Below are positions 510 through 30,833 of a stretch of DNA of 64,000 nt, piece by piece. A model generated the notes under the pieces. It was not told the DNA's origin. It saw only the letters and a program-made list of their open reading frames with translations, and searched no databases. How positions within the stretch are numbered: the stretch's first letter is position 1; each line of letters starts with the position of its first letter. Both the position numbers and the translations under genes were made by a program. This DNA comes from Mycolicibacterium aromaticivorans JS19b1 = JCM 16368 (GTDB lineage Bacteria > Actinomycetota > Actinomycetes > Mycobacteriales > Mycobacteriaceae), in assembly GCF_000559085.1 (NCBI RefSeq), contig NZ_JALN02000001.1, forward strand, positions 2,914,001 through 2,978,000. Reading direction: 5' to 3'.

Positions 510-2518
510 CTCCAGATGCGGACGCGCCGGTCGGGCTCGAGATACAACTCGTCGTCCTCGCTGACATCGAACGCCTCATAGAACGCGTCCATGTTGCGGA
601 TCACGCCGTTGCAGCGGAACTCCGGGGGTGAGTGCGGATCGGTCGCCAGGCGCCGAATCGCCTCGGCCTCACGAGATTTCGTACGCCACACCTGCGCCCA
701 GCCGAAGAACACCCGCTGCCTACCGGTCAGGCCGTCGATCACCGGCGCTTTCTTGCCGTCCAGCGACAGCTCGTAAGCCAGCAGCGCGATCGACAGTCCG
801 CCCAGGTCGCCGATGTTCTCGCCGACGGTGAACGCGCCGTTGACGTGGTGGCTCGGCTGGAGCCCGCGCGGTACGAACTCTTCATACTGCTCGATGAGTT
901 GCTTGGTGCGCGTGCCGAACTCGGTGCGGTCCTCGTCGGTCCACCAGTCGACGAGATTGCCGTCGCCGTCGTACTTGGCGCCCTGGTCGTCGAATCCGTG
1001 GCCGATCTCGTGGCCGATCACGGCGCCGATCCCGCCGTAGTTGGCCGCGTCATCGGCCTCGGCGTCGAAGAACGGCGGCTGCAGAATCGCCGCGGGGAAC
1101 ACGATCTCGTTCATGCCCGGGTTGTAGTAGGCGTTGACCGTCTGCGGGGTCATGAACCACTCGTCGCGATCGACCGGGCCGCCGAGCTTGGCCATTTCCC
1201 GGTCGTGGGCCACCTCGGCACCGCGAATCACATTGCCGTACAGATCGTTTCGATCGATCACCAGTGCCGAGTAGTCACGCCACTTCTTCGGATAGCCGAT
1301 CTTGGCGGTGAACTTGTCCAGCTTGGCCAGCGCGCGCTGACGGGTCTCCGGCGTCATCCACTCCAGGTCGTTGATGCTGACCCGGTAGGCCTCACGCAGG
1401 TTGTCGACGAGCACGTCCATGCGGGCCTTGGCATCCGGCGGGAAGTGCCGCTCGACATAGAGCCGTCCGACCGCGTCGCCCATCAGGCTCTCCACCAGCG
1501 ACACGGCCCGCTTCCAGCGTTCGCGGATCTGCTCGGTGCCCGACAGGGTGCGACCGTAGAAATCGAAGTTCGCCTCCACCACCGCCTCGGTCAGGTAGGC
1601 GGCGCGCGCGTTGATCAGGCGCCAGCGCGCCCAGTCCTGCCAGTCGGCGAAGTCGTGGCCCGACCACAGCTCGGCGAACGCGGTGAGGTAATCAGGTTGG
1701 CGCACAACGAGTTCGGCCACCACGTCCGGTTTGGTGCCCTGCGCGCCGATCCAGCCGGCCCAGTCGAAGCCGGGCGCCTCTACGGGCAGATCGGTGAAGT
1801 TGCGCAGGTTATAGGTCAGGTCCGCGTCGCGGCGCTTGACGACATCCCAGTGCGCGGCAGCCAGTTTGGCCTCCAGTGCGACGATCCGCGCGGCCCGCTC
1901 GGTGTGGTCGTCGGCGGTGCCGCCCAGAACGAGCGCGAACATCGTGGCGATATGCGCCGGGTAGGCACCCAGGATGGAGGCGTGCTGCTCGTCGCGGTAG
2001 TACGACTCGTCCGGCAGACCCAGACCCGACTGCGTGACGTGCAGCAGGTACCGCGTCGAGTTCTTGGAATCGGTGTCGATGTAGAGCCCGACGCCACCGC
2101 CCACGCCGGTGCGCTGCAGCGAGCCGATCACCGCGGCCAGCGCAGCCGGATCGGCCGCGGTATCGATATGCGCCAGCTCGTCGAGCAGCGGCTGCACGCC
2201 GCGGCGCTCGACGGCCTCGGCGTCCAGGAAGCTGGCGTAGAGGTCGCCGATCCGTTGCGCATCGCTGCCCGGCTCGCTTCTGCCATCTCCCGAGTCGCTG
2301 CGCTCCTGCCCACCGGCCGCGGCCATGATGAGCTCGCGCACCTGCTCCTCGGCCCGGTCGTACAACGTCCGGAACGCGCCGTCGGTGGCCCGGTCACCGG
2401 GGATGGTGTACTCGGCCAACCAGCGTCCGTTGACGTGGCCGAACAGATCGTCTTGGGGGCGAACCTGGGCTTCGACGTGGGACAAGTCGATACCCGAGCG
2501 CAGCGTTTCTACCGTCAC
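506..2518 (-). CDS. zmp1: M13-family zinc metallopeptidase Zmp1
   Basis: A 670-residue M13 (neprilysin-like) peptidase. The zinc motif HEIGH lies at residues 503-507, the third ligand is the Glu of GENIGD near 567, and the substrate-binding NAYY motif lies upstream. The C terminus carries the family CNGVIRNM motif. There is no signal peptide, as in M. tuberculosis Zmp1, which is exported by another route and is linked to host inflammasome suppression. I chose the GTG at 2518 because homology begins at SGIDLSH and the sequence AAGGATGG lies just before it; a longer reading frame to 2638 would overlap the divergent omamA. Residues near 70-85 contain an insertion with GGQERSDSG, a copy of the dispersed element described elsewhere; it shifts the zinc ligands by about ten from the published M. 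tuberculosis numbering as I recall it. Confidence 0.93.
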   Translation of the reverse strand: MTVETLRSGIDLSHVEAQVRPQDDLFGHVNGRWLAEYTIPGDRATDGAFRTLYDRAEEQVRELIMAAAGGQERSDSGDGRSEPGSDAQRIGDLYASFLDAEAVERRGVQPLLDELAHIDTAADPAALAAVIGSLQRTGVGGGVGLYIDTDSKNSTRYLLHVTQSGLGLPDESYYRDEQHASILGAYPAHIATMFALVLGGTADDHTERAARIVALEAKLAAAHWDVVKRRDADLTYNLRNFTDLPVEAPGFDWAGWIGAQGTKPDVVAELVVRQPDYLTAFAELWSGHDFADWQDWARWRLINARAAYLTEAVVEANFDFYGRTLSGTEQIRERWKRAVSLVESLMGDAVGRLYVERHFPPDAKARMDVLVDNLREAYRVSINDLEWMTPETRQRALAKLDKFTAKIGYPKKWRDYSALVIDRNDLYGNVIRGAEVAHDREMAKLGGPVDRDEWFMTPQTVNAYYNPGMNEIVFPAAILQPPFFDAEADDAANYGGIGAVIGHEIGHGFDDQGAKYDGDGNLVDWWTDEDRTEFGTRTKQLIEQYEEFVPRGLQPSHHVNGAFTVGENIGDLGGLSIALLAYELSLDGKKAPVIDGLTGRQRVFFGWAQVWRTKSREAEAIRRLATDPHSPPEFRCNGVIRNMDAFYEAFDVSEDDELYLEPDRRVRIWS
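2287..2317 (-). repeat. Dispersed GGQERSDRG element, copy in zmp1
   Basis: On the minus strand this stretch reads through GGGCAGGAGCGCAGCGAC and is translated as GGQERSDSG in zmp1. It differs from the mmpL3 unit at a few positions (CACCGG for CGCCGG, GAGTCG for CGGTCG), so it is a diverged copy. Confidence 0.75.
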
Positions 2519-2588
2519 CCAACCATCCTTACCAGAGGTCCGACCTCGGCGTCCGGCCCGCAGGTGGCCGCCCGGTAGCCTCGCCTTC

Positions 2589-3176
2589 ATGCCTGAGGCC
2601 GAACCGACCGATGACGGCGCCGACGAGCGGACCTTCACCGGCTACGGCGTCGCCTCTGCCGTTCTTGGTGTGGTGGCTGTCGCGGCCGTCGTGTTGGGCG
2701 TGCTGATCTGGTCCGGGCACCACGACGCCGCCGACGAGCGGGCCTATCAGTCCAAGGTGATGTCGGCCGCCGCGAACTGGACAAGTGTTCTGATCAACAT
2801 GAACGTCGACAACGTCGACGCCAGCCTGGCGAAACTGCACGACGGCACCGCCGGCCAGCTCAACTCCGATTTCGAAGCCGCCATCAAGCCCTACCGCGAG
2901 GTGGTCCGCACCCTGCAGGCCCGCACCACGGGACAGATCGAGTCGGTGTCCTTCGAAGCGGTGCACCACGACCTGAACGTGCAGCCGGGTCAACCTCCGC
3001 AGGCGCCCGCCCTGCCGCCGGAGCTGGCCAAACGCACCGACTCCGTGCTCGTGGTCGCCACCTCGGTCAGCGAGAACTCCGGCAACAAGCCCACCACCGT
3101 GCGCTGGAACCTGCGGCTGGGCGTCTCCGATGTGGACGGCAAGCTGATGATCTCGCGGCTGGAGTCGCTGCGATGA
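2589..3176 (+). CDS. omamA: Mce-associated membrane protein, OmamA-like
   Basis: A 195-residue protein with a short cytoplasmic N terminus, one transmembrane helix (about residues 20-45, rich in Val and Ala) and an extracytoplasmic domain with the NTF2-like fold expected of Mce-associated membrane proteins. It lies directly after zmp1, the position of Rv0199 in M. tuberculosis, which was named OmamA for its role in stabilising the Mce transporter ATPase MceG and in cholesterol and fatty acid import. The ATG at 2589 is used. Its stop overlaps the next start in an ATGA arrangement, so the two genes are translationally coupled. Confidence 0.85.
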   Translation: MPEAEPTDDGADERTFTGYGVASAVLGVVAVAAVVLGVLIWSGHHDAADERAYQSKVMSAAANWTSVLINMNVDNVDASLAKLHDGTAGQLNSDFEAAIKPYREVVRTLQARTTGQIESVSFEAVHHDLNVQPGQPPQAPALPPELAKRTDSVLVVATSVSENSGNKPTTVRWNLRLGVSDVDGKLMISRLESLR

Positions 3177-3862
3177 GAAACCTGGCCCGCGTCCTGGCGT
3201 TCGACACCGTGGCGCCGCTGGCCGCCATCGCGGCCCTGTTGTCCATCGGCGTGGTGCTCGGCTGGCCGCTGTGGTGGGTGGCGGTGTGTTCGATGCTGTG
3301 CCTGCTCATCGTCGAAGGCGTGATCGTCAACATCGTGCTGTTCCGCCGGGATTCGGTGACCGTCGGTACCGACGACGACGGCCCCGGCCTACGCCTGGCC
3401 GTCGTCGCGCTGGCCACCACGGCGCTGGTCGCCACCGTCATCGTCGGCTACACCCAGTGGACGCGCCCGGACCGGGATTTCATCCGCGACTCCGCCGAGG
3501 TGGTGCGCATCGCGACCGCCGCGTCCGAAGCCACCGCGACGTTCACACCGGCCGATCCGATGTCGTCGATCGACCGGGCCGCTACGTTCATGGCACCCGA
3601 CCGGGCCGATGCGTTCAAGAACGAATTCTCCCAAGCCACTTCAGATCTGGCCAAGAAGAACATCTCCGCCACCGCGCAGACCACGTCCGCCGGGCTGGAG
3701 GCGCTGGGTCCCGCGGCAGCCAGTGTGGCGGTGGTGATGCGGGGCACCCAAAGCCAGCCGGGTCAGCAGCCCAGTACCGCTGTGCTGGCGCTGCGGGTCA
3801 GCCTTGCCAAGCAGGACGGCCGGTGGCTGGTGCTCGACATCTCGCCGATCAACGCCCGATGA
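3173..3862 (+). CDS. omamB: Mce-associated membrane protein, OmamB-like
   Basis: A 229-residue protein with three or so hydrophobic segments in the first 100 residues (about 15-35, 38-58 and 75-97) and a soluble domain related to that of its neighbour. Its position after omamA matches Rv0200 (OmamB). Known homologues act as accessory subunits for the Mce lipid importers. The start overlaps the omamA stop, and the 3' end overlaps the convergent CoA-binding gene by 14 bases. Confidence 0.82.
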   Translation: MRNLARVLAFDTVAPLAAIAALLSIGVVLGWPLWWVAVCSMLCLLIVEGVIVNIVLFRRDSVTVGTDDDGPGLRLAVVALATTALVATVIVGYTQWTRPDRDFIRDSAEVVRIATAASEATATFTPADPMSSIDRAATFMAPDRADAFKNEFSQATSDLAKKNISATAQTTSAGLEALGPAAASVAVVMRGTQSQPGQQPSTAVLALRVSLAKQDGRWLVLDISPINAR

Positions 3863-4268
3863 GCCGGGCGTAGTCCACCTTCAGGCACCGGTCCATCACG
3901 ACGCGCAGCCCGGCGGCGCGCGCCTGCTCAGCCACCTCGTCATGCCACAGACCCTGTTGCAGCCACAGGTATTTCGGATGCGGGCTCAGCGCGAGCGTGT
4001 CCGCCAGTACCCCAGGAAGATCGTCGTAACGGCGGAACACGTCGACCATGTCCGGCACGACGGGCACTTCGGCCAGCGACGGATAGACCCGCGCGCCGTC
4101 GATGTCACTGATGTTCGGGTTCACCGGATACAGCTCGAAATCGCTGAACCGCGCCAGATACTCGTACACCTCGTGGCTCGGCCGAGCCGGATTGTCAGAG
4201 GCGCCCACCACGGCGACCGTGCGGGTGTCACGCAGAATCGCTTCCAGCTCAGCCGAATTCGGGGTCAA
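3849..4268 (-). CDS. CoA-binding domain protein (YccU-like)
   Basis: A 139-residue single-domain protein with a Rossmann-type CoA-binding fold. The N-terminal strand-turn-helix TVAVVGASDNPARPSHEV is the nucleotide-binding motif, followed by YPVNPN and the conserved WLQQGLWHDE segment typical of CoA_binding_2 proteins. The physiological role of this family is not established. The predicted start is a TTG at 4268, four bases after the stop of the upstream gene at 4273, so the two are likely one transcript; the TTG assignment is less certain than the gene itself. Confidence 0.85.
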   Translation of the reverse strand: MTPNSAELEAILRDTRTVAVVGASDNPARPSHEVYEYLARFSDFELYPVNPNISDIDGARVYPSLAEVPVVPDMVDVFRRYDDLPGVLADTLALSPHPKYLWLQQGLWHDEVAEQARAAGLRVVMDRCLKVDYARLIGR

Positions 4269-4272
4269 CGGC

Positions 4273-4767
4273 TCAGTCTCCGCCGGACGCGCGCTGGGCG
4301 CGCATCTTGGCGAACCGGTCCGACAGCCTGCGCATCCGGATCATCAGCGACGCAGGCGGACTGACCGTGGCGTCGAGATAGGAGACCAGATCCGATTGAG
4401 CCACCCCGATGCGGGAGGCGAATTCCTGCTCGGCCAAGCCGGACCGGTCGAGCAGCAGCCGGACGTGCCGGGCGGCCTCGGCGCGCTCGTTGGCCTCCAG
4501 GTGGCTGCGGGCGCGCAGCAGCACCTCGACCAGTGCTTTCGAGATGCCGTACGGCTGTGAGTGTTCGAGCACTTCCTCGACCTGGCGGGCGGTCCGGCCG
4601 TAGGGATCTCGCTTGATGGCCATCACGATCCGCTGCCAGACGGTGATGTCGCCGCTCTCGAGCGCCTCACGGATCGAGGCCGTGGGCCAGAACTCGACGG
4701 GACGGGGGTCGATGAATGATTGTGCGGCCGCTGCGGGTACGGCATCGCGTTCCGCTGCCACCGTCAC
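4273..4767 (-). CDS. Small helix-turn-helix protein, Rv0201c-like
   Basis: A 164-residue protein. The first half contains WQRIVMAIKRDPYGRTARQVEEVL and the second half a likely helix-turn-helix, LAEQEFASRIGVAQSDLVSY, resembling an Xre-type DNA-binding segment. The GTG start at 4767 overlaps the mmpL11 stop in a GTGA arrangement and gives almost the length of Rv0201c (166 residues as I recall). A longer frame up to 4923 would run far into mmpL11 and has no support. Coupling to mmpL11 suggests co-expression with the lipid exporter. DNA targets are unknown. Confidence 0.8.
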   Translation of the reverse strand: MTVAAERDAVPAAAAQSFIDPRPVEFWPTASIREALESGDITVWQRIVMAIKRDPYGRTARQVEEVLEHSQPYGISKALVEVLLRARSHLEANERAEAARHVRLLLDRSGLAEQEFASRIGVAQSDLVSYLDATVSPPASLMIRMRRLSDRFAKMRAQRASGGD

Positions 4768-7942: not shown

Positions 7943-7961
7943 TGACGTCATTCAAACGTCA
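7943..7961. promoter_or_regulatory. Inverted repeat before the first hemophore gene
   Basis: TGACGTcattcaaACGTCA is a perfect 6-base inverted repeat with a 7-base spacer, about 20 bases before the ATG at 7981. It lies just upstream of the ribosome binding site, a place where a repressor could block expression. No known regulator motif is matched with certainty. Confidence 0.4.
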
Positions 7962-9076: not shown

Positions 9077-9082
9077 TCCGCA

Positions 9083-17525: not shown

Positions 17526-20500
17526 CTACAACCGGCCTTCGCGGCGCAGCAGATCCTGCGCGCTGACGCCGCCGCCACGACGGGGGCGTTCGTCGCCCTC
17601 TTTCTTGCCGCGCGAGTTCAGCTTCTCGGTCGCCACCTCGGAGTCGCCGTGATCGGGCCGGCTGATCGGGATGGCACGGGTCTCCTCGGCGCTGATCGCG
17701 GGGGAGACATCGCCGTTCTGCTCGCGCTGGGCCGGGATGGCCGTCGTCGCGTCGTCTGGAGCCGACATCGCCTGAGTCGGCTGCGCAGACGGCTGCTGCG
17801 GCGGGGTCGGGCCCGGCTTGGCCATTCCCCGGTCGCTTCGCTCCTGCCCGCCGGTACCCCGCAGCTCACCCAGCCACGACTCGATCTCCCGATCCGGGGC
17901 CGGTGGCGTGGGCGCGCGGTTGGTCTTGGCGGCCGAGGCGGCGGTGTTCACCGCGTTCTTCACGGCGTTCTTGGCCACCGAAAATCGCGTGGTCGGTGCT
18001 TCGGTGATTCCCCGGTCGCTGCGCTCCTGCCCGCCGGCGGTGATTCCCCGCTCGCTGCGCTCCTGCCCGCCGGCGGTGATTCCCCGGTCGCTGCGCTCCT
18101 GCCCGCCGGCGGTGATTCCCCGGTCGCTGCGCTCCTGCCCGCCGGCGGTGATCTCGGTGCGGGCTTCGACCGGATCGGGCATCCGCGCGGTTCCGGCAGC
18201 TGACGGGGCTTCCTGCGGCGGCGGCGGGTTGCGGTATTCGGCGCGTCCGACGACACGCGGCATCGCGCGGCCCTCGACGGGATGGGTCGGGTCGTGCGCC
18301 GGTCGTCGGGCTTCGGCGGCTGCCGATACCGGCGCACCGGCACCCACCAGCGCGGGATCCGGTTCACGCACGACCGGCCGCTTGCGCTCGTCGGTCAGGT
18401 GGGTCTCACCGAGGCCGATCCGCACCTGCAGGCGCTTCATCCAGCGCGGCGCCCACCAGCAGTCGTCGCCGAGCAGTTTCATGATGGCCGGGACCAGGAA
18501 CATCCGGATGACGGTGGCGTCCAGCAGCAAAGCGATCAGCAGACCGAAGGCCAGATACTTCATCACAACCAGGTCGGAGAATGCGAACGCGGCGACCACC
18601 ACGGCCAGTACCAGCGCGGCACCGGTAATGAGTCGGCCGGTGGTGGCCGTGCCGATCCGGATGGCCTCTGCGGTGGACAGGCCGCGCTCACGGGCCTCCA
18701 CCATCCGGGAGACCAGGAACACCTCGTAGTCCGTGGACAGGCCCCAGATCACCGCGATGATCAGACCGATCATCGGGGCGAACAAGGGCTGCGGCGTGTA
18801 ATTCAACAGGCCAGAACCGTGTCCGCCCTCGACGAACATCCAGGTCAGAATGCCCATTGTGGAGCCCAGCGTCAGTGCGCTCATCAATGCGGCCTTGATC
18901 GGAAGCACCACCGAGCCGAACGCCAGGAACATCAGGACGGTGGTGGTGAGCACCAGGATCAGCACCATCAGCGGCAGCTTGTCGAACAGCGTCAGAATGC
19001 TGTCCTGTGCCAGCGCCTGGGTACCGCCGACGAGGACCGTGGTACCCCTGGGCGGGGTCAGCGCGCGCAGCTGTTGGATCTTCTGGGGTGCGGTACTGCT
19101 GTCTATCAGTCCGTTCTGGATCACCCGTACGGACGGATCCTTTGATCCGCCGTTCTGGGCCGAACGTTCCTCCCACATCTTCGACGGGTCGTCGCTGCCT
19201 GCGAAGCCGGACACCGTCTGCGCTTCGGCACGCAGATCGTCGAGCTGCTGTTGGGTTACCGGCGAGCCGTTGTTGGTTTTGATGACCAGGGTCAGCGGTT
19301 CGGTGCGGAAACTGGAGAACTCTTTGTCGAATTGCTCCTGCGCGCTGCGCACCGGGTTGTCCGGCGGCAGGTATTTCTCACTGAGCCCGCCCAACGCCAG
19401 CTGCCCCATCGGGATGATGAGCAACGTCATGATGATCACGATGGGAGCGGCAAACGCGATAGGCCGCTTCATCACCACATTGACCAGGCGGCCCCAGAAT
19501 CCCTTTTCGACCTCCTCGCGGGTCTTGGTCTTCTGGGTTTTCTCGATGAACCAGTCGATGATCCTGCGCGAGAACGGCCAGTTGGCCAGGAACGGCACTC
19601 GGAGCAGAGTCCGCACCCCCAGAGCGTCGACGTTGGCACCCAGAATTCCCAGGACAGCGGGCAGCACCGTGATCGACAGGAAGGCCGCGAGCAGCACCGA
19701 AGCGATGATCGCGTAGGTAATCGACCTCAGGAAGCCAAGTGGGATCAGTAGAAGCGGTAGCGAGGACGCCACGATGATGACCGAGGAGAACGCGACGGTG
19801 CGGCCCGACGTCATCACCGACCGCCGTACCGCCGCTTCGACGTCGTAGCCTTCGGCGAGTTCCTCTCGGAACCTGCTGACGACGAACAATCCGTAGTCGA
19901 TGGCTATGCCGAAGCCCATCATCGTCACGACGGGCTGGGCGAAGAAGTGCACCGGTCCGAACTCGGCGGTCAGCCGGAGGATGCCGAGCGCTCCGCCGAT
20001 GGTGAGGCCACCGATGATGGCGGGCAGCGCGGCCGCGACGGCGCCGCCGAAGACAAAGAACAGGACCACCGCCACCAGTGGGACGATCGCGATTTCGGCG
20101 CGGGCCTGGTCGGTGCCGATGGTCCCGGTGAGCTCGCTGGCGAGCGGATTGAGGCCGGCGAGCTGGATAGTGCCGCCGTTGATCTTCTTGAGGGCTGGCT
20201 CGATGGTCTGGTAATTCTTCAGGATCGTGTCGTCGTCATCTCCCTTGAGCGGGATGCTGACGAAGGTATGACGGAGATCCGCCGTCTTCATCTGATTGAC
20301 GGTCGGGTCGGTGGTGTCGGGCGCTTTCAGCCAGCCGACCCAGCCCACGATCTGATCGGGATGGTCCTTGACCACCTGGTCGAGCTCATCGGTGACTGTC
20401 TTCTGCCAGTTCTTGTCAGTCACCTTCTCGTCGCCCGGCGGCGTCAGGATGGCGACCACGTGGCTGGTGCGGTCACGGCCGTACACCTCGTCGGCGAGCG

Positions 20501-20663
20501 TCGAGGCCCGCACCGACTCGCTGCCGTTGTCGTAAAAACCGCTCTGGGTGACGTGCTTGCCCAAGGAGGCCCCGTATACGGCGCCACCGAGGCACAGCCC
20601 GACCATGACCGCGATCACGATGTATCGATATCGATACACAGTTCGACCCCACCAGGCGAACAC
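17526..20663 (-). CDS. mmpL3: Trehalose monomycolate flippase MmpL3
   Basis: A 1045-residue RND transporter, the essential exporter of trehalose monomycolate to the periplasm for mycolic acid assembly. The N terminus FAWWGRTVYRYR and the two proton-relay pairs Asp256-Tyr257 (GIAIDYGLFVVSRF) and Asp645-Tyr646 (GLSTDYEVFLVSRM) match M. tuberculosis MmpL3 residue for residue. The protein ends in the conserved GGGVSAQDLLRREGRL. The cytoplasmic tail from about residue 740 is roughly 100 residues longer than in M. tuberculosis, in large part because of five copies of the GGQERSDRG element: four in tandem at about 838-887 and one at 937-946. The GTG start at 20663 has AGGAG six bases upstream. It is followed on the same strand by nothing; upstream lie the NYN gene and trmB. 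Confidence 0.96.
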   Translation of the reverse strand: MFAWWGRTVYRYRYIVIAVMVGLCLGGAVYGASLGKHVTQSGFYDNGSESVRASTLADEVYGRDRTSHVVAILTPPGDEKVTDKNWQKTVTDELDQVVKDHPDQIVGWVGWLKAPDTTDPTVNQMKTADLRHTFVSIPLKGDDDDTILKNYQTIEPALKKINGGTIQLAGLNPLASELTGTIGTDQARAEIAIVPLVAVVLFFVFGGAVAAALPAIIGGLTIGGALGILRLTAEFGPVHFFAQPVVTMMGFGIAIDYGLFVVSRFREELAEGYDVEAAVRRSVMTSGRTVAFSSVIIVASSLPLLLIPLGFLRSITYAIIASVLLAAFLSITVLPAVLGILGANVDALGVRTLLRVPFLANWPFSRRIIDWFIEKTQKTKTREEVEKGFWGRLVNVVMKRPIAFAAPIVIIMTLLIIPMGQLALGGLSEKYLPPDNPVRSAQEQFDKEFSSFRTEPLTLVIKTNNGSPVTQQQLDDLRAEAQTVSGFAGSDDPSKMWEERSAQNGGSKDPSVRVIQNGLIDSSTAPQKIQQLRALTPPRGTTVLVGGTQALAQDSILTLFDKLPLMVLILVLTTTVLMFLAFGSVVLPIKAALMSALTLGSTMGILTWMFVEGGHGSGLLNYTPQPLFAPMIGLIIAVIWGLSTDYEVFLVSRMVEARERGLSTAEAIRIGTATTGRLITGAALVLAVVVAAFAFSDLVVMKYLAFGLLIALLLDATVIRMFLVPAIMKLLGDDCWWAPRWMKRLQVRIGLGETHLTDERKRPVVREPDPALVGAGAPVSAAAEARRPAHDPTHPVEGRAMPRVVGRAEYRNPPPPQEAPSAAGTARMPDPVEARTEITAGGQERSDRGITAGGQERSDRGITAGGQERSERGITAGGQERSDRGITEAPTTRFSVAKNAVKNAVNTAASAAKTNRAPTPPAPDREIESWLGELRGTGGQERSDRGMAKPGPTPPQQPSAQPTQAMSAPDDATTAIPAQREQNGDVSPAISAEETRAIPISRPDHGDSEVATEKLNSRGKKEGDERPRRGGGVSAQDLLRREGRL
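17824..17854 (-). repeat. Dispersed GGQERSDRG element, single copy in mmpL3 tail
   Basis: The minus strand encodes GTGGQERSDRGMA. The DNA differs from the tandem units by one base in the centre (CGCTTCGCTCC for CGCTGCGCTCC on the plus strand). It lies about 150 bases from the tandem array. Confidence 0.8.
18003..18152 (-). repeat. Four-unit 36-bp tandem array of the dispersed element in mmpL3
   Basis: Units at 18003-18038, 18039-18074, 18075-18110 and 18111-18146 are nearly identical; the second differs by one base (CTCGCT for GTCGCT), giving SERG instead of SDRG. A six-base start of a fifth unit (GGTGAT) follows to 18152. Each unit encodes ITAGGQERSDRG. There are no spacers between units, and the array is in frame with the cytoplasmic tail of MmpL3. 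Confidence 0.95.
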
Positions 20664-21402: not shown

Positions 21403-22193
21403 CGTTGCCTCAACCACAGAAGTTCGGCCACCGCGCTGCCCGCCTCAGCGGCCTTCGTCTCGTATTTGGTCCTCGGGCGCTGCACCGAGACCGGCAGTTC
21501 GTCGCCGGGCTGCACACGGCGCAGCAGGGATTCGGCGTCGCCCGCGTCGGCGATCTGCTCGGCGTAGCCCGCGTGGTCGGTCGCGGCGTGCAGCACACCA
21601 CCCGGTCGCAACCGATCGGCGATCAGCGAGATCGTGTTCGGCTGCAGCAGCCGTCGCTTGTGGTGTCGTGATTTCGGCCACGGGTCGGGGAAGAACACCC
21701 GGACCCCGGTCAGCGAGCCGGGGCCGAACATGTTCTCCAACACGTCGACCGCGTCGCCGCGGACCAGCCGAATGTTCGGCACACCTTCGCGGCCGACGGC
21801 GCTGAGCAGCTGAGCCAGCCCGCGCTTGTAGACCTCGACCGCCACCACATCGATATCCGGCTCGGCCATCGCCATCGCCAGCGTCGACGTACCGGTTCCG
21901 CAGCCGATCTCCAGGACCACGGGCGCCTGTCTGCCGAACCACGCCGTGGTGTCCAGCAGTCCCGCAGGCTTCGCCGGGGTGAATCCCCGGTCGCTGCGCT
22001 CCTGCCCGCCGACCTCACGCGCCATCGTGCCCATCTCGGGCCACAGCCGATCCCACGCGTCCTGCTGCGCCTCGGTCAGGGTCGAGCGCCGCGAACGGAA
22101 GCTGGTGATCCGGGGATAGGGATGCGCCGGCCAGGCATCGGGCGTGGCTGAGCCACCGTGGCGCTGCGCATGCATCCGTCCATGGTCGCTCAT
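21399..22193 (-). CDS. trmB: tRNA (guanine-N7)-methyltransferase TrmB
   Basis: A 264-residue SAM-dependent enzyme that methylates G46 in the variable loop of tRNA. Motif I is VVLEIGCGTGTSTLAMA (about 92-108), the signature FFPDPWPKSRHHKRRLLQP lies at 167-185, and ATDHAGYAE and RPRTKYETKA near the C terminus are also typical. The ATG at 22193 gives MSDHGRMHAQ, which matches the M. tuberculosis start as I recall. Residues 61-70 (VGGQERSDRG) are a copy of the dispersed element, placed in the variable linker between the N-terminal basic region and the Rossmann fold. It is the first gene of the trmB-NYN-mmpL3 operon. Confidence 0.95.
   Translation of the reverse strand: MSDHGRMHAQRHGGSATPDAWPAHPYPRITSFRSRRSTLTEAQQDAWDRLWPEMGTMAREVGGQERSDRGFTPAKPAGLLDTTAWFGRQAPVVLEIGCGTGTSTLAMAMAEPDIDVVAVEVYKRGLAQLLSAVGREGVPNIRLVRGDAVDVLENMFGPGSLTGVRVFFPDPWPKSRHHKRRLLQPNTISLIADRLRPGGVLHAATDHAGYAEQIADAGDAESLLRRVQPGDELPVSVQRPRTKYETKAAEAGSAVAELLWLRQR
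21978..22012 (-). repeat. Dispersed GGQERSDRG element, copy in trmB
   Basis: Thirty-five bases match the mmpL3 36-bp unit over nearly the whole length, including the flanking GGTGA part, with single differences (GGTGAATCCCC for GGTGATTCCCC, and CCGAC for CCGGC at the other end). It encodes VGGQERSDRGFTP. Confidence 0.88.
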
Positions 22194-23195: not shown

Positions 23196-24646
23196 CCGAC
23201 GCCGACACCCTGGTGGCACAGCTCGATGCAGCCCTGCCGATGCCCTCGATCGTGCGGCGCGACGTGGTGCTGGTGGCCGGTCCATGGCTGGGCGGGGCCA
23301 GCAGTGTGGTGACCGCTCTGCGGAAGCGGCTGCCCGAGCACACCGTGGTCGAAGCCGACGAGGTGGCCGCCGGCCAGGCCCCCGCCGCGGTGGTGTTCGT
23401 GGTCTCGGCGACTGCGCCGCTCACCGAGTCCGACTGTGCGCTGCTGGATGCCGTCGCCGCCGACACCGACGCGGTCATCGGGGTGGTGACCAAGATCGAC
23501 GTCCATCGCACCTGGCGCGATGTGCTCGACGCCGACCGTGCAGTGCTGGCGCAGCGGGCGCCCCGCTACCGCGACATGCGGTGGGTCGGCACCGCCGCCG
23601 CGCCCGATCTCGGCGTAGCCGTCATCGACGAGCTCGTCACCGCGCTGCGAGACATCCTCGCCGACGCGACGCGAGATCGACGAAATCGATTGCGGGCCTT
23701 GGAGAATCGTTTGCTTACGGTGCAGCGGAGGCTGGAGCTCGAGGTCGCAGGGGCCGGCCGGGGGGCGCGGCTGGGTGCCCTGCGGACCGAGCGCACCGCG
23801 GCGTTGCACCGGTACCGGGTGGAGAAGTCGCAGCGGTCCATCGCGCTGCGCGCCCAGGTTCAGCACGCCCGCCTTACGCTGACCTATTTCGCCCGCAACC
23901 GGTGCGCGTCGGTGCGAACGGAGTTACAGGAAGACCTGGCGGCCCTGGGCCGACGCGGCCTCGCCCATTTCCCCGACGAGGTGCGGCGCCGGGCGGCCGA
24001 GGTGGCCGACGACGTCGCCGCCGGCGTCGTCCGGCAACTGGGCGATGTCGGCGAGGAGTTGGGTCTTGCGGTCGAGCCGGTCGACTCCCGTCCCGCGGTC
24101 GAGGTGCGGGCCGCGCCGTCGCGGGCCCGCGGTGCGGAGACCCGATTGATGCTGCTGCTGGGTGGCGGCTTCGGTGTCGGGGTGGCGTTGACCCTCAGCC
24201 GGGTGTTCGCCGGCCTGGCCCCACAGTGGGCGGTCGGCGGCGTACTCGGCGGCGCCGTCATCGGAGTCGCTCTGACCGTCTGGGTGGTCGCGGTCCGCGG
24301 CCTTCTGCATGACCGGGCCGTACTCGACCGTTGGGTGGTGGAGGTCATCGGCAGGCAGCGCACCGCGGTGGAGGAATGGGTGGCCGCCCGCGTACTGGCG
24401 GCCGAGGCGTCACTGGGCCGTGCCGCCGCCGAACGCGACGCCGCGGACCACGCCCGAACCGAGGACACCATCGCCCGCATCGACCGCGAGATCCGCGAAC
24501 ACGCGACCGCCGGTGCCCGTGCGGCCGCGGCGCGCGACCGGCATGTCCCAGTGATCGAGAGTGCGCTGGCGGCGGTCGGCCACGAACTCGACGCGCTGAA
24601 TACAGCCAAACCGACCGATTCGCGGTCTTCTGAATCGTTCCTGTGA
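23192..24646 (+). CDS. Dynamin-like or GTPase-associated membrane protein, Rv0210-like
   Basis: A 484-residue protein. The N-terminal domain has a weak P-loop-like strand (VVLVAGPWLGGASSVV) and VTKID near residue 90, which resembles the NKxD/TKxD guanine-binding motif. A long helical region rich in Arg and Leu spans 140-300, two transmembrane helices lie at about 318-340 and 350-372, and another long charged helix follows to the end. This layout of GTPase head, coiled coil and paired membrane helices is like that of bacterial dynamin-type proteins. It is coupled to the preceding gene by GTGA. Function is inferred from layout only. Confidence 0.72.
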   Translation: MTDADTLVAQLDAALPMPSIVRRDVVLVAGPWLGGASSVVTALRKRLPEHTVVEADEVAAGQAPAAVVFVVSATAPLTESDCALLDAVAADTDAVIGVVTKIDVHRTWRDVLDADRAVLAQRAPRYRDMRWVGTAAAPDLGVAVIDELVTALRDILADATRDRRNRLRALENRLLTVQRRLELEVAGAGRGARLGALRTERTAALHRYRVEKSQRSIALRAQVQHARLTLTYFARNRCASVRTELQEDLAALGRRGLAHFPDEVRRRAAEVADDVAAGVVRQLGDVGEELGLAVEPVDSRPAVEVRAAPSRARGAETRLMLLLGGGFGVGVALTLSRVFAGLAPQWAVGGVLGGAVIGVALTVWVVAVRGLLHDRAVLDRWVVEVIGRQRTAVEEWVAARVLAAEASLGRAAAERDAADHARTEDTIARIDREIREHATAGARAAAARDRHVPVIESALAAVGHELDALNTAKPTDSRSSESFL

Positions 24647-24671
24647 GTGATCGGACATAATCCCGATTAAC

Positions 24672-24703
24672 CGCGGGTATCTCACCCGCGTTAACCTATT
24701 TTT
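24672..24703. terminator. Hairpin with T-run between the GTPase pair and pckG
   Basis: CGCGGGTatctcACCCGCG is a perfect 7-base stem with a 5-base loop, followed by TTAACCTATTTTT. It lies 26 bases after the stop at 24646, in the position of an intrinsic terminator. The stem is framed by TTAAC on both sides, so an operator role for pckG is an alternative. Confidence 0.6.
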
Positions 24704-24776
24704 CAGGGAGGACCGTGTCTCGGCGCGGAATCCGGCCTGCGTCCTGGCCATAAAAATAAGCAGGAGATTGACAGCG

Positions 24777-26603
24777 ATGACTTCAGCGACCATCCCCGGT
24801 CTGGATAACGCACCGACCAAGCATCAGGGCCTGCTCGCTTGGGTCCAGGAAGTCGCCGAACTCACGCAGCCCGACCGGGTGGTCTTCGCCGACGGCTCCG
24901 AAGAGGAATACACGCGGTTGTGCGGCGAGCTCGTCGCCGCCGGAACCTTTACCAAGCTGAGCGACTCCGAGGAGCCGAGCTCTTATCTCGCCCGTTCGGC
25001 GCCGTCGGACGTGGCTCGCGTCGAGTCGCGCACGTTCATCTGCTCGGAGCGGGAGATCGACGCCGGCCCCACGAACAACTGGATGGATCCGGCCGAGATG
25101 CGCGGCCTCATGACCGACCTGTACCGCGGCTCGATGCGCGGCCGCACCATGTACGTGGTGCCGTTCTGCATGGGCCCGCTCGGTGCCGACGACCCCAAGC
25201 TCGGCGTCGAGATCACCGACTCCGAGTATGTGGTCGTCTCGATGCGGACGATGACGCGGATGGGCAAGGCCGCGCTGGAGAAGATCGGCGACGACGGATT
25301 TTTCGTCAAGGCGCTGCACTCACTCGGCGCGCCGCTCGCGCCGGGCGAAGAAGACGTGCCGTGGCCGTGCAACGACACCAAATACATCACCCACTTCCCG
25401 GAGACCCGCGAGATCTGGAGCTTCGGTTCGGGTTACGGCGGAAACGCGCTGCTCGGCAAGAAGTGCTACTCGCTGCGCATCGCCTCGGCGATGGCACACG
25501 ACGAGGGCTGGCTCGCCGAGCACATGCTGATCCTCAAGCTGATCTCCCCGGAGAACAAGGCGTACTTCGTCGCCGCCGCGTTCCCGTCCGCGTGTGGCAA
25601 GACCAACCTCGCGATGCTGCAGCCGACCATCCCGGGCTGGCGTGCCGAGACCGTCGGTGACGACATCGCCTGGATGCGCTTCGGCAAGGACGGCCGGCTG
25701 TACGCCACCAACCCGGAGTTCGGTTTCTTCGGGGTCGCGCCGGGCACCAACTGGAGCTCGAACCCGAACGCGATGAAGACCGTCGCGGCAGGCAACACCG
25801 TGTTCACCAACGTCGCGCTGACCGACGACGGCGGCGTGTGGTGGGAGGGCCTCGAAGGCGACCCGCAGCACTTGATCGACTGGAAGGGCAACGATTGGGA
25901 ACCGGGGTCGCCCGACAAGGCTGCCCACCCGAATTCGCGCTACTGCACCCCGATGTCGCAGTGCCCGACGCTGGCCCCGGAGTGGGACGACCCGCAGGGG
26001 GTGCCGATCTCGGCAATCCTGTTCGGCGGCCGTCGCAAGACCACGGTGCCGCTGGTGACGCAGGCCCGCGATTGGCAGCACGGCGTCTTCATCGGGGCCA
26101 CGCTGGGCTCCGAGCAGACCGCCGCCGCCGAGGGCAAGGTCGGCACCGTCCGTCGTGACCCGATGGCCATGCTGCCGTTCCTCGGCTACAACGTCGGCGA
26201 CTACTTCGCCCACTGGATCAACCTCGGTAAGAACGCCGACGAGTCGAAGATGCCCAAGATCTTCTTCGTGAACTGGTTCCGCCGCGGCGATGACGGCCGG
26301 TTCCTGTGGCCGGGCTTCGGCGAGAACAGCCGCGTGATGAAGTGGATCATCGAGCGGGTCGAGGGCAAGGCCAACGGCTCCACCACCCCGATCGGCATCG
26401 TGCCGAGCGCCGGCGATCTGGACCTCGAGGGCCTGGACGCCGATCCGGCTGACGTCAACGAGGCACTGGCGGTCAACGTCCAGGAATGGCGCGACGAGCT
26501 CCCGCAGATCGAGGAGTGGTTCGAGTTCGTCGGGGAGAAGCTGCCGACCGGGGTCAAGGACGAGTTCGAGGCGCTCAAGCAGCGGCTTGCCGAAGCCGAC
26601 TAA
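24777..26603 (+). CDS. pckG: Phosphoenolpyruvate carboxykinase (GTP)
   Basis: A 608-residue GTP-dependent PEPCK that converts oxaloacetate and GTP to phosphoenolpyruvate, CO2 and GDP, the first step of gluconeogenesis; in mycobacteria it is needed for growth on fatty acids and cholesterol. Typical motifs are [13 protein letters not shown] (P-loop with the reactive Cys), NEFGF-like [22 protein letters not shown] and [22 protein letters not shown]. The ATG at 24777 is chosen over a TTG at 24768 because CAGGAG lies ten bases upstream. Its place beside fatty acid genes suits its role. Confidence 0.97.
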
Positions 26604-26651
26604 CTTCCGTTACGGCCAGTTCGGCCCCAGACCCCAGCTAATATCCGTTCG

Positions 26652-27557
26652 GTGGGGGTCCCGTCGGCGGATGCGCCGGCGCCGGCGAGGAATGCGCCAG
26701 CGCCCGCTCAGTCGTGGTGGCGCCGGATCGCCACCGTCGGCGTCATTCTCGCCATCTATATCGGGTCGGTGGCGGGCTACTTCTGGATCGACAGTTCGGC
26801 GCACTCGCTGAAGCCCACCAATCTGGACACCGCCAACGAGACCGTTGTCCTGTTGGAGCTCACGGCCATTCATCCGCTCGACAATCGGGTGGACGTCGAA
26901 GTTCTGGTGATACCGCAGAAGGGCTTCCTGGATCCCGAGTTCGGCAACCTCACCACCGACATGGTGGTGCGGCTGTGTCCGTGCATCGAGTTCGGGGAGC
27001 TGACCTTCCCCAAGGGGCAGGTTCCCAAGGTCGCCAAGACATCGCTGTTGGCCACCGGGGACGCCGACAGGTGGCCGTTCGACAGGTACACCACCGACAC
27101 CATCGGCGCCGACGTGTATGTCGGGTCGGGCGATCAGAGGCGTTATGTGCCTGCCCGGGTGGAGGTGAGCGGATCGCTGTACGGCTGGGATGTTCGCAGC
27201 GATCGGACGGGGCCCGCCACCCACTCCGGCGGCGCCGACGACAACGCGACCGTCACGTTCTCCCGATCCCGCGGTCCGCTGGCGCTGATCTTCGGGATCT
27301 GCCTGGTGCTGCTGATGCTGCCTGCGCTGGCGCTGTACGCGGCGATCGAAATGCTGCTGGGCAAGAAGAAATTCCAGCCGCCGTTCTCGACGTGGTTCGC
27401 GGCGATGCTCTTCGCGGTTGTCCCGATCCGCAACGTGCTGCCTGGCGATCCGCCGCCGGGGTCCTGGATCGACGAGGCGCTGGTCTTCTGGGTGTTGGTG
27501 GCGTTGGTCGCGGCGCTGGTCATCTACCTGGTGTCCTGGGCCCGGCACAGCGACTGA
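26652..27557 (+). CDS. DUF4436-like membrane protein
   Basis: A 301-residue protein with an N-terminal transmembrane helix (about 25-45), an extracytoplasmic beta-rich domain of about 150 residues that includes WPFDRYTTDTIGADVYV, and three C-terminal helices (about 212-235, 250-270, 278-298) with the motif VPIRNVLPGDPPPGSWID. A second protein of the same design lies at 48858-49799 (YPFDRYTGRLEVHVYS, IPLRNAVPGNPPIGSIID). The family is of unknown function. The GTG at 26652 follows pckG by 48 bases. Confidence 0.75.
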   Translation: MGVPSADAPAPARNAPAPAQSWWRRIATVGVILAIYIGSVAGYFWIDSSAHSLKPTNLDTANETVVLLELTAIHPLDNRVDVEVLVIPQKGFLDPEFGNLTTDMVVRLCPCIEFGELTFPKGQVPKVAKTSLLATGDADRWPFDRYTTDTIGADVYVGSGDQRRYVPARVEVSGSLYGWDVRSDRTGPATHSGGADDNATVTFSRSRGPLALIFGICLVLLMLPALALYAAIEMLLGKKKFQPPFSTWFAAMLFAVVPIRNVLPGDPPPGSWIDEALVFWVLVALVAALVIYLVSWARHSD

Positions 27558-27609
27558 CTAGCAGCACCTAGTTGACACCCGTCAAGAGGCTCTGTCGTAC
27601 AGTGCTCCC

Positions 27610-29142
27610 ATGCAGATCCGCGAGCATGCGCACGCCACTCCCGACAAGCCGGCAGTCATCCTGTATCCGTCCGGGAAAACGGTCACGTTCGGCGAGATGG
27701 AAGCCCGGGCCAACCAGCTGGCACACCTGTTCCGGCAGGCCGGGCTGCGTGAGGGCGACTCCGTCGCGATCCTCATCGAGAACAACGAGCACTTCCACAC
27801 CGTGTTGTGGGCGGCGCGGCGTTCCGGGCTCTATTACGTGCCGATCAACACGCACCTGACGGCGGCCGAAGCCGCGTACATCATCGACAACAGTGAGGCC
27901 AAAGCCGTCGTCGGCTCGGCCGGGCTGAAGGACACCCTCGCCGGGCTCGCCGCGGAGGTGCCGACGATGCCGCCGCTGCTGATCATCACCGACGGCGAAC
28001 TCGACGGCTGGCGCAGCTACCCGGAATGCGTTGCGGACCAGCCGGTTACGCCGATCGACGACGAGATCGAGGGCGACCTGCTGCAGTACTCGTCGGGAAC
28101 GACGGGGCGGCCCAAGGGAATCAAGCGCGAACTTCCGCACCTGCCGCCCACCGAGGTGCCCGGCATGATGGCCGGACTCATCGGATTCTGGATGAACCCC
28201 GATGCGGTCTACATCAGCCCCGCCCCGCTGTATCACACCGCGCCCTCGGTGTGGTCGATGCAGACGCTCGCGGCGGGAATCACCACTGTGGTGCTGGAGA
28301 AGTTCGACGCGCAGGGCTGCCTCGACGCGATCGCGCGCCATAAGGTCACTCACGGCCAGTTCGTCCCGGTGATGTTCACCCGGATGCTGAAACTGCCTGA
28401 GGATGTTCGCAATTCGTACGACATCTCGAGTCTGCAGCGGGTCATGCACGCGGCCGCGCCCTGCCCGGTCGAGATCAAGAAGCAGATGATCGATTGGTGG
28501 GGTCCGATCGTCGACGAGTACTACGCATCCTCCGAGGCCATCGGGTCGACGTTGATCTTCGCCGAGGACTGGCTGACCCACCCGGGCTCGGTCGGCAAGC
28601 CGATGATGGGCGGACTGCACATCCTCGACGAGGACGGCAACGAGTTGCCGCCCGGCCAGGCGGGGGAGATCTATTTCGAAGGCGGCATGGATTTCGAGTA
28701 CCTCAACGACGCCGAGAAGACCGCCAAGTCGCGCGACAGCCACGGCTGGAAGACGGTCGGCGACATCGGTTATCTGGACGAGGAGGGCTACCTCTACCTC
28801 ACCGATCGCCGGCATCACATGATCATCTCGGGCGGGGTGAACATCTATCCGCAGGAAGCCGAGAACATGCTCGTCACGCACCCGAAGGTGATGGATGCCG
28901 CCGTGTTCGGCGTGCCCGACGAGGAGATGGGCCAAAGCGTCAAGGGTGTGGTCCAGCTGGTCGACTCCGCGGACGCGACGGAGGAATTCGCTGCCGAGCT
29001 GCTGGCGTGGTTGCGTGATCGGCTCTCGCACTACAAGTGTCCGCGGTCGATCTCGTTCGAGTCCGAGCTGCCCCGCACCGACACCGGCAAGCTGTACAAG
29101 CAGGAACTGATCGTCAAGTATTCGCCCGCGCCCACCGGCTAG
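27610..29142 (+). CDS. fadD4: Acyl-CoA synthetase FadD4
   Basis: A 510-residue member of the AMP-forming ANL family that activates carboxylic acids to acyl-CoA or acyl-AMP. The phosphate-binding loop is LLQYSSGTTGRPKGIKREL (about 157-175), the adenine-binding motif YYASSEAIGSTLI, the hinge and core motif DRRHHMIISGGVNIYPQEAE, and the catalytic Lys is in RTDTGKLYKQEL near the end. The sequence tracks M. tuberculosis FadD4 closely and it sits before a fadE3 homologue as in that species. The next gene starts directly after its stop. Confidence 0.92.
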   Translation: MQIREHAHATPDKPAVILYPSGKTVTFGEMEARANQLAHLFRQAGLREGDSVAILIENNEHFHTVLWAARRSGLYYVPINTHLTAAEAAYIIDNSEAKAVVGSAGLKDTLAGLAAEVPTMPPLLIITDGELDGWRSYPECVADQPVTPIDDEIEGDLLQYSSGTTGRPKGIKRELPHLPPTEVPGMMAGLIGFWMNPDAVYISPAPLYHTAPSVWSMQTLAAGITTVVLEKFDAQGCLDAIARHKVTHGQFVPVMFTRMLKLPEDVRNSYDISSLQRVMHAAAPCPVEIKKQMIDWWGPIVDEYYASSEAIGSTLIFAEDWLTHPGSVGKPMMGGLHILDEDGNELPPGQAGEIYFEGGMDFEYLNDAEKTAKSRDSHGWKTVGDIGYLDEEGYLYLTDRRHHMIISGGVNIYPQEAENMLVTHPKVMDAAVFGVPDEEMGQSVKGVVQLVDSADATEEFAAELLAWLRDRLSHYKCPRSISFESELPRTDTGKLYKQELIVKYSPAPTG

Positions 29143-30081
29143 ATGCATCTCGTCGACCTGTCCGACCCGCCGCCGCTCGGGATCACCGGTCCGTCGGGCG
29201 TCGTCGTTGCGGTCGGCGAGCCGTCGACGCCGGAGGGCGAATTCTGGCTGGACACAGCCACCTTCGCCCTGACCGACAGGGAACACGAAGACCGCCGCTT
29301 CGTCGCGGTGGAGTCGGTGAGCGACACCGTGGCCCTACTGCGGGATCGTTGCCTGCACTGGCCGCACGCCAGCGCCGTCTGCGACGACGTGTTGCGGTCG
29401 GTCGACGTGACCGGCCCGGCGCTCCCCGGGATCATCACCGAGTCGCTGGCGTACTCGACGTTGCAGTCCGGGCCGGAGTTCGCCCGCTGGCGTGACTCGC
29501 GCGGTCCGGCGTCGTTGCCCGACATCGCCGACCCGGTGCTCGCCGAGCGTGACGGCGGCACGCTGCGCATCCGGTTCAACCGCCCGCAGCGTCATAACGC
29601 GTTCAGCACCGACGCCCGAGCACTGTTGTTGGAGGCGCTGACCGTCGCGCTGCTCGACGACACCGTGACCGTGCTGGTGCTCAGTGGCAATGGCGCATCC
29701 TTCTGCAGCGGTGGGGATCTCGGCGAGTTCGGCACCTTCGCCGACCCGGCTTCGGCGCATCTGGCGCGGACCCGGCACAGCCCGGCGTTGGCGCTCGACG
29801 AGCTGAGCCGGCGCCTCGGCCGGGCCTGCCGGGCCGACATCCACGGTCGCGTTCTCGGCAGCGGACTGGAGATGGCGTCGTTCTGCGGCTGGGTGAGCTG
29901 CCACCCCCACGCGGTGCTGGGGTTGCCGGAACTGACACTCGGCCTGATCCCCGGCGCCGGTGGAACCGTCAGCATCACCCGGCGGATCGGGCGTTGGCGC
30001 ACAGCCTATTTGGTGCTGTCCGGCCGGACCATCGATCCGGCTACCGCGCTGGCGTGGGGCCTGGTCGACGAGGTCGCCTAG
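29143..30081 (+). CDS. Divergent enoyl-CoA hydratase/isomerase
   Basis: A 312-residue crotonase-fold protein with an extra N-terminal domain of about 125 residues. The fold proper begins at LRIRFNRPQRHNAFST. The oxyanion-hole loops are FCSGGDLGEFG and ADIHGRVLGSGLEMASFCGW, and the second catalytic region reads LPELTLGLIPGAGGTVSITRRIG. The Glu in PELTLG and the acidic residue of the first helix are in place, so activity is likely. It begins with an ATG touching the fadD4 stop, so it is co-translated with it. Substrate unknown; probably the hydration step after activation by FadD4. Confidence 0.85.
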   Translation: MHLVDLSDPPPLGITGPSGVVVAVGEPSTPEGEFWLDTATFALTDREHEDRRFVAVESVSDTVALLRDRCLHWPHASAVCDDVLRSVDVTGPALPGIITESLAYSTLQSGPEFARWRDSRGPASLPDIADPVLAERDGGTLRIRFNRPQRHNAFSTDARALLLEALTVALLDDTVTVLVLSGNGASFCSGGDLGEFGTFADPASAHLARTRHSPALALDELSRRLGRACRADIHGRVLGSGLEMASFCGWVSCHPHAVLGLPELTLGLIPGAGGTVSITRRIGRWRTAYLVLSGRTIDPATALAWGLVDEVA

Positions 30082-30833
30082 CTGGAGCGGCGCAGCGTGA
30101 CCCGGTAGGTGTACTGCTCGGGCAGGAAGTGGCTGACCGACAGCTCCACCGGGGTGCCGGTGGTGTCGGAGTACAGCCGGTCCACCCGCAGCATCGGGTG
30201 GTCTCGCTCGCAGCCGAGCGCCTCGGCGACCAGCTCGTCGGCGGTTGCGACCGTGATCGACTGGGCTGCTTCGGCTATCGGCTGATCCAGGTGCGGTTCC
30301 AGGACGCCGATCACGGTGTTGGTGCCGACCGCGCCGTCTGCCAACTCCGGGGAGTCGAACACCAGCCGGGCGATGTGCTCCGGTAGGTGCACCGTGGTCA
30401 CCACGAACGGAACCCCGTCGATATCCCCGGGTCGCTGCGCTCCTGCCCGCCGGTCATGGACACGCCTGAACACCACGGTGTACACCACGTCGTGCTCCAG
30501 CCGCAGTCGGCTGGCCGCCGTCACGTCGACACGTCGCGAAAGGCCCTGCAGCACTTCCATGCTGGTGTCTTCGGACAGGCTCATCAAGTCCTCGATCGAA
30601 CCGAGCTGCCGCAGATACCCGCGGTTGGCGTACGTGCCGCGGCCGGGCACCCGGTACACCACGCCTTCGGCCACCAGATCCTGGAACGCCCGGCGGACCG
30701 TCTGCCGGGACAGCCCGTGCTCGGCGACCAGCTCCGATTCGGTCGGCAACCGCACGCCGTCGGGGTAGGCCCCGGCCGCGATCTCATCGCGGAGTCGCTG
30801 CCGCAGAACCTGATACGCGGGTTCAGGCTTCAT
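30078..30833 (-). CDS. GntR-family regulator with UTRA domain, carrying the dispersed element
   Basis: A 251-residue HutC-type regulator. The winged helix spans about 8-72 (LPTESELVAEHGLSRQTVRRAFQDLVAEGVV, RVPGRGTYA) and the UTRA ligand domain about 92-245. Within UTRA, between FRRVH and GVPFVVTTVHLPEHIA, there is an insertion of about a dozen residues (DRRAGAQRPGDI) encoded by a copy of the dispersed element, read in a different frame from the other copies. It sits in what should be a loop of the ligand domain, so the protein may still fold. It converges on the enoyl-CoA hydratase with a four-base overlap and lies just after fadE3, so it may control these fatty acid genes. Confidence 0.87.
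   Translation of the reverse strand: MKPEPAYQVLRQRLRDEIAAGAYPDGVRLPTESELVAEHGLSRQTVRRAFQDLVAEGVVYRVPGRGTYANRGYLRQLGSIEDLMSLSEDTSMEVLQGLSRRVDVTAASRLRLEHDVVYTVVFRRVHDRRAGAQRPGDIDGVPFVVTTVHLPEHIARLVFDSPELADGAVGTNTVIGVLEPHLDQPIAEAAQSITVATADELVAEALGCERDHPMLRVDRLYSDTTGTPVELSVSHFLPEQYTYRVTLRRSS
30421..30453 (-). repeat. Dispersed element, copy in gntR in a shifted frame
   Basis: The core GGGTCGCTGCGCTCCTGCCC on the plus strand equals the other copies except for one extra G in the CCCCGG run (CCCCGGG). The gntR reading frame passes through it as RRAGAQRPG rather than GGQERSDRG. Confidence 0.85.

Follow-up and report, generated by a model that had tools for sequence, protein, structure and literature searches.

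We report a short repeat of mycobacteria which is probably a very short mini-element of the MIRU (mycobacterial interspersed repetitive unit) kind, spreading by copying and insertion of about 36 bp and then by local expansion into arrays. It was found in a 64-kb window of the 6.3-Mb genome of Mycolicibacterium aromaticivorans JS19b1 (G000:C1:2914001-2978000, forward strand; "the window" means this whole stretch, and G000 is the window's own genome). The conserved element was 29 bp long, TYCCCGGGTCGCT[N]CGCTCCTGCCCGCCG, as determined by alignment of 123 non-redundant single copies, and it seems to have been inserted recently at dozens of places in its own genome, sometimes in frame within genes. 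MIRUs are in wide use for tuberculosis strain typing, and to our knowledge there is no explanation for how they spread. With its many clean pairs of filled and empty sites, a shorter relative that looks active makes the mechanism of spread testable. The repeat also offers a clear case of copy-number variation within coding genes, and it adds one short peptide to unrelated proteins, an MmpL3-like transporter included.

The element and its copies

The 18-mer by which the repeat was noticed, in a sequence-only reading of the window, occurred there eight times (six exact copies and two with one mismatch), while 0.44 copies were expected from dinucleotide shuffles and no shuffle reached eight. All the copies were present at the four loci named in that reading, and all eight were located within minus-strand open reading frames, so that their orientation relative to the host gene was identical as well. 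The claim that they lie inside coding DNA and keep the host gene open was therefore upheld. The copies and their host genes were as follows.

2287..2315, plus strand: element copy in zmp1, a gene on the minus strand; in-frame peptide AGGQERSDSGD
17825..17853, plus strand: one copy of the element, in the mmpL3 C-terminal tail
18002..18152, plus strand: tandem array in the mmpL3 tail, four units with a 36-bp period
21983..22011, plus strand: copy within trmB, located upstream of the match to the methyltransferase domain
30424..30452, plus strand: copy in the gene of a GntR-family regulator, read in another frame (RRAGAQRPG)
506..2638, minus strand: host gene, M13 metallopeptidase (zmp1-like), Pfam PF05649 and PF01431
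17526..20663, minus strand: host gene, MmpL3-like transporter, Pfam PF03176
21399..22175, minus strand: host gene, TrmB-like methyltransferase, Pfam PF02390; the start is that of the gene finder, and the open frame extends to 23048
30078..30833, minus strand: host gene, GntR/UTRA regulator, Pfam PF00392 and PF07702

The host gene at 17526..20663 is one that we take to be mmpL3. In its array the 7-bp sequence CGGTGAT separated the units and also flanked both array ends. The inserts in zmp1, at both places in mmpL3 and in trmB read GGQERSD in one common frame, with one array unit reading GGQERSE. The zmp1 copy corresponded to residues ~108-118, within the Peptidase_M13_N span (61-450), and the gntR copy to residues ~126-138. 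Since the UTRA match began at residue 138 with profile position 43, the gntR copy is probably inside the UTRA domain. The description of the insertion sites as loops, linkers or tails thus suited the mmpL3 C-terminal region and trmB, and did not suit zmp1 or, probably, gntR. No match to Rfam was found in the window.

In the 123 single copies, conservation was strong from position -6 to +20 except at +5, which was free (T50, G44, C25, A4) between nearly invariant neighbours. The two ends were asymmetric: the right end was sharp at +20/+21 (1.65 bits at +20 vs 0.29 at +21), and the left end was fuzzy over -7 to -12 (1.67 bits at -6, 0.96 at -7, 0.63 at -8 and 0.24 at -9). The size of 28-36 bp given in the sequence-only reading was accordingly corrected to a conserved element of ~29 bp with a net insertion of usually 36 bp.

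The own genome contained 25 exact 18-mers and 51 copies matching a 24-mer when three mismatches were allowed (reversed control, 0), and 54 copies at 37 sites were counted in the fetched stretches with flanks. The element is therefore present in many copies genome-wide and is not limited to those first seen. The single chromosomal orientation of the eight window copies did not hold across the genome, where 29 of the 51 copies were forward and 22 reverse.

Across the genus, at least one match to the 18-mer with up to one mismatch was detected in 248 of 396 genomes, and many genomes had none. The highest count was obtained in G158 (96 copies, or 184 with a looser pattern). The family is thus genus-wide yet patchy. 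In a scan of named genomes, 77 of the 80 loci among the matches listed carried Mycobacterium or Mycolicibacterium titles, and three were from actinobacterial bins. When the plasmid and phage collections were searched with the 161-bp mmpL3 array stretch, no match was obtained at E 1e-5, a limit that a lone copy could escape. A 17-base motif was present in six viral contigs. Searches of the open-licence literature yielded no description of the element, as judged by titles, abstracts and term counts.

Filled and empty sites

Scores were obtained for 177 of the 396 genomes, and the nearest relatives among these were G024 (94% over mmpL3-trmB), G053 (91%) and G171 (88%). The trmB insert was shared by the own genome and G024, and a clean 36-bp gap was found in G053 and nine further relatives. 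The single mmpL3 copy was filled in G024 and G053 and replaced by a 36-bp gap in G093, G004 and G136. At zmp1, where the fetched G053 and G171 stretches did not match, a 36-bp gap was observed in G024 and G136 and a 24-bp gap in G093, while the insert was present in G004. The gntR insert was missing from G024, G053, G171, G004 and G136, and G093 carried a copy at the same site. The number of mmpL3 array copies was four in the own genome, two each in G024 and G053, one in G136 and none in G004.

Filled and empty sites were further compared for 20 own and eight G024 loci across G000, G024 and G053. Twelve of the 20 own loci, which were mostly picked for having no matched G024 copy and are not a random sample, were empty in both G024 and G053. 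The remaining own loci were common to G024 or both relatives, or unclear, apart from three discordant ones described below. The copies at L024 and L043 were common to all three close relatives, and L024 was an old, decayed copy.

Net insert length was scored at 24 single-copy sites with an empty relative, consisting of 20 compared loci and the four window sites. L047 was excluded, the wrong cluster having been picked (its alignment suggests ~31 bp), and L008 was too tangled for scoring. Measured against the better-aligned relative, 16 of the 24 sites had a net insert of exactly 36 bp (12 codons), and the other eight lengths were 42, 35, 38, 37, 39, 39, 29-30 and 5-19 bp. Because the 36-bp cases L006, L039 and L050 are outside genes, this length is not merely a coding constraint. 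Precise empty sites, mostly of 36 bp net, were thus found in relatives, as the sequence-only reading had expected of a mobile element, and the same insertion was not seen in all relatives.

In 52 array sequences, the spacing between copies was 36 bp in 73 cases, 37 bp in 14, 35 bp in 7, 38 bp in 6, 34 bp in 4 and 39 bp in 2; this survey covered spacings of up to 45 bp and left orthologous arrays unmerged, and one spacing of 58 was seen elsewhere. The spacer was usually constant within an array and different between arrays. Tandem copies stood head to tail, with no inverted pairs seen, and the L100 array had six copies vs none across relatives. The free base was also considered as a position that is hypermutable within arrays, which was rejected since only 1 of 106 adjacent pairs in the fetched arrays differed, yet two arrays of G158 had mixed bases at this position among the matches listed.

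Placement relative to genes

Genes were called by a simple home-made gene finder, based on codon usage and with the window as training set, and the calls were not checked individually. Sites were classified as deep in a gene, edge (inside a gene, within 60 bp of its end), overlapping a gene end or intergenic, after exclusion of five sites lying too close to the end of their locus and of two duplicates in the named set. The 115 own and named sites comprised 29 deep, 29 edge, 3 overlapping and 54 intergenic ones, whereas 90.8 (79%), 13.3, 4.3 and 6.6, respectively, were expected from random positions, which were drawn from the named loci and the window and not from the other own loci. The element has no preference for genes, and its sites are concentrated intergenically and at gene ends. 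The earlier suggestion that it tolerates or exploits insertion in genes was therefore retained for in-frame tolerance and dropped for any gene preference.

Among the deep copies, 26 of 30 were antisense to the strand on which the repeat was first read (p = 6e-5; own 12/12, G024 1/1, named 13/17). Frame 0, which encodes the hydrophilic peptide GGQERSDRG, was used in 16 of these 26. Intergenic copies between co-directional genes were unbiased (sense/antisense: own 5/3, named 14/8, G024 0/2). We attribute the bias of orientation and frame within genes to selection on the peptide that is encoded rather than to a property of insertion.

Likeness to MIRU and other known repeats

The nearest relatives found by sequence are MIRUs, which were not named in the sequence-only reading. 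The motif GAGCG[N]AGCGA occurred 99 times in the own genome, and its reversed control 23 times. Some of the additional places were tandem arrays of 50-54 bp units in G007 and the own genome, with TCGCT[N]CGCTCTGCATCGTC and a left part of the CGCCGCTCCTCCTCA type. These arrays matched MIRU292 of M. avium subsp. paratuberculosis as given in Table 1 of PMC7977185, and also primer 3 as quoted from PMC10117815. Repeats of the MIRU type in the own genome were a three-copy 50-bp array at L319 (C1 ~685,679-685,800) and a single unit at L326 (C1 ~751,260).

Both families are therefore present in the own genome. Like MIRUs, the element is dispersed as well as tandemly repeated head to tail, with variable copy number and tens of loci (37 sites in the own genome). 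Both have a core TCGCT[N]CGCTC with a variable N, followed by TGC and, in some MIRU units, by CGCCGG. They differ in size, since MIRUs are repeats of 46-101 bp, at 41 loci in M. tuberculosis, according to PMC3914561, whereas the element has a unit of 34-39 bp, mostly 36 bp, and a fixed part of 29 bp. The left flank is TYCCCGGG in the element and a CGCCGCTCCTCCTCA-type stretch in MIRU. Unlike MIRU, the element is inserted in frame inside genes, with empty sites. Six MIRU loci, seen in short stretches, all lay between genes of one direction, the GAGCG strand running the same way; of the 115 sites of the element, 54 were intergenic, 29 edge, 3 overlapping and 29 deep. Genomes rich in the element were mostly poor in MIRU, and vice versa. 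The senX3-regX3 MIRUs are stated, in PMC4213456, to be restricted to M. leprae and the M. tuberculosis complex; a 19-base MIRU core was detected here in 134 of 287 genus genomes, a wider range than in that statement.

From these comparisons, we class the element as a short form of MIRU, to which a relation by descent is likely. More tentatively, the GAGCG[N]AGCGA core may mark a mycobacterial superfamily of minimal mobile units, comprising MIRUs, the 36-bp element and possibly further small families. Its members would spread without a known transposase or reverse transcriptase, compete with or replace each other between lineages, and donate a hydrophilic 12-residue peptide when in genes.

Like the palindromic elements of Rickettsia (RPEs), to which it had been compared in the sequence-only reading, the element is a short repeat inserted in frame within unrelated genes. 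One RPE insertion in frame in a gene, between positions 1560 and 1666, is described in PMC5656822. That RPE has a length of ~107 bp, and RPEs are by their name palindromes, whereas the element is 36 bp and not palindromic; the comparison holds for in-frame insertion and is conceptual only, the nearest relatives in sequence being the mycobacterial MIRUs. REPINs, built from repetitive extragenic palindromic (REP) sequences, are presented in PMC3116915 as inverted doublets with predicted hairpins, which are extragenic and linked to the RAYT tyrosine transposases. The element resembles REP/REPIN as described there in being short, multi-copy and non-autonomous, and differs in having no predicted hairpin or inverted pair, in that some copies are genic and in that its own genome has no match to Y1 transposase. 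With regard to miniature inverted-repeat transposable elements or insertion-sequence derivatives, no general target-site duplication of fixed length was present at the 123 sites, and terminal inverted repeats were not evident in the consensus or the folds, no dedicated test having been run.

Probable mode of spread

The idea of a dispersed mobile mini-element, first raised in the sequence-only reading, agrees with the many copies, the precise empty sites, the lineage-specific presence and the array differences between species. The pattern of presence and absence suggests that copies move rather than arise otherwise. Each insertion would add ~36 bp, made up of the 29-bp fixed sequence and roughly 7 bp of variable junction sequence, and an inserted copy may then expand locally into head-to-tail arrays via slippage or unequal recombination. 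The TCGCT[N]CGCTC core may be recognised by trans-acting host machinery or by an unrecognised enzyme. Selection would purge most genic insertions and spare those at gene ends and the in-frame ones adding GGQERSDRG.

Several results weigh against such a copy-and-insert spread of a MIRU-like element. No mobilising enzyme was found when two enzyme families, Y1 transposase and reverse transcriptase, were searched. No ordinary hairpin was predicted, as either strand folded no better than shuffles (four sequences, z 0.85-1.46) in an energy model that may miss special small loops; this agrees with the earlier remark that the element is not an obvious palindrome. The likeness to MIRU was short and statistically modest: the alignment covered TCGCT[N]CGCTC-TGC, plus CGCCGG in the own-genome MIRU unit, and its score was reached by 0.3-8% of dinucleotide shuffles, depending on the N letter and the MIRU used. 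At least 10 copies were present for the element in 55 and for the MIRU core in 48 of 287 genomes, and for both in 1 vs 9.2 expected (Fisher p = 4e-4), these counts being read by eye and uncorrected for phylogeny.

The empty sites also raise difficulties for it. At 5 of the 16 sites with 36-bp inserts a second relative disagreed, giving 24 bp (L039, L045, zmp1) or 33 bp (L053, L093). L001, L006 and L044 were filled in G053 and empty in the closer G024, and the zmp1 and gntR inserts were found in the own and more distant species and missing from the closest relative. Such discordant distribution requires repeated insertion, loss or transfer; for zmp1 and gntR the pattern suggests a second insertion at the identical place, loss or transfer.

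The flanks, finally, count against it too. Direct repeats of at least 5 bp flanked 28 of 123 sites (16.5 +/- 3.7 by chance) and those of at least 7 bp flanked 5 of 123 (1.0 by chance), an excess so small that target duplication is occasional at best. In most tests the junction bases were no more alike between copies than by chance, and they thus give no account of the additional 7 bp.

Two candidate rules for the flanks were examined. Target-site duplication as a rule, hinted at by the mmpL3 CGGTGAT, L023 and L100, was rejected by the flank-repeat statistics. Copying of donor flanks, hinted at by the spacer similarity of L049 and L050, was not supported overall, the junction bases showing no sharing above chance in most tests. 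An excess was obtained in one of eight junction windows (-18 to -8), with 105 pairs at >=7/10 vs 79.4 (maximum 102), 25 pairs at >=8/10 vs 11.5 (maximum 21) and none at 9 or 10. The right edge of this junction window adjoins the semi-conserved left end of the element.

A host-driven origin, in which template switching or end-joining captures a 36-nt patch as a templated insertion and slippage follows, is a rather unlikely alternative. A dedicated enzyme would be unnecessary, the element's own sequence provoking its spread, and both tested enzyme families do fail as an account. Several junctions show a small replaced patch or an overlap of 1-5 bp, which fits, as do the small excess of short direct repeats and the variation of the period over 34-39 bp. 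It leaves the frequent exact net length of 36 bp and the constant copying of 29 bp unaccounted for, and the very uneven distribution over genomes speaks against it, suggesting a variable trans factor.

Retro-insertion of an RNA copy, reverse-transcribed into the genome to leave one sharp and one fuzzy end, would match the asymmetric ends of the element and is improbable. A reverse transcriptase domain was detected in 5 of 8 genomes tested (four over the family cut-off), the own genome (an open frame of ~475 aa, C2:76882-77571) and G018 among them. Of the four genomes with the highest copy numbers among those tested, G018 had three PF00078 matches and the other three (G158, G145 and G155) had none.

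Mobilisation after the REP/RAYT fashion, where a Y1 (HUH) transposase uses single-stranded DNA and works in trans, is more doubtful still. A short non-autonomous repeat without regular target duplication would be expected of it, some high-copy genomes carry the family (e.g. G018, G183, G285), and the bottom strand has GCGNAGC, a mini-hairpin motif of the DNA-structure literature, in which the free N would be the loop base. Against this, PF01797 had a match in 72 of 396 genus genomes, not including G024, G053, G009, G155 or G158, and had none in the own genome, for which a Y1 mover was therefore rejected. It was present in 13 of the 55 genomes with at least 10 copies and in 42 of the 232 others (G000-G286, read by eye), showing no clear link to copy number. 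Arrays stood head to tail without inverted pairs, and no stable fold was predicted.

That the sequence is immobile, either inherited as part of an ancestral protein or DNA or kept by selection as a binding site, has hardly any credibility and was refuted for most of the sites compared. The strongly conserved core and the sharing of L024 and L043 by three close relatives speak for it; the lineage-specific copies, the precise empty sites, the lack of relation among host genes and among flanks, and the decay of L024 speak against it.

Further small repeats

Other repeats with the same core were seen. At L324, L329, L330 and L332 of the own genome, the form CCCG-(GG)-TCGCTTCGCTC-GCCC had the core of the element and not its right half, and is possibly another family. 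L321 (own C1 ~2,706,247) was a 35-bp tandem pair, GCTCATTGCTTGCC-TCGCTTCGCTC-GCC, with the same core and other flanks. GGAGCG[N]AGCGACC was rejected as a phylum-wide element, being at or near control level in most of 100 genomes, with the own genome, G004 and G397 as exceptions. G397 (another family of the phylum, 1.6 Mb) contained GGAGCGAAGCGACC 11 times, always with A at the free position (control 0); this repeat outside the genus may be independent or related. In G468, of another family of the phylum, three copies of GGAGCGCAGCGACC were found with 48-bp spacing (C1:378599-378708).

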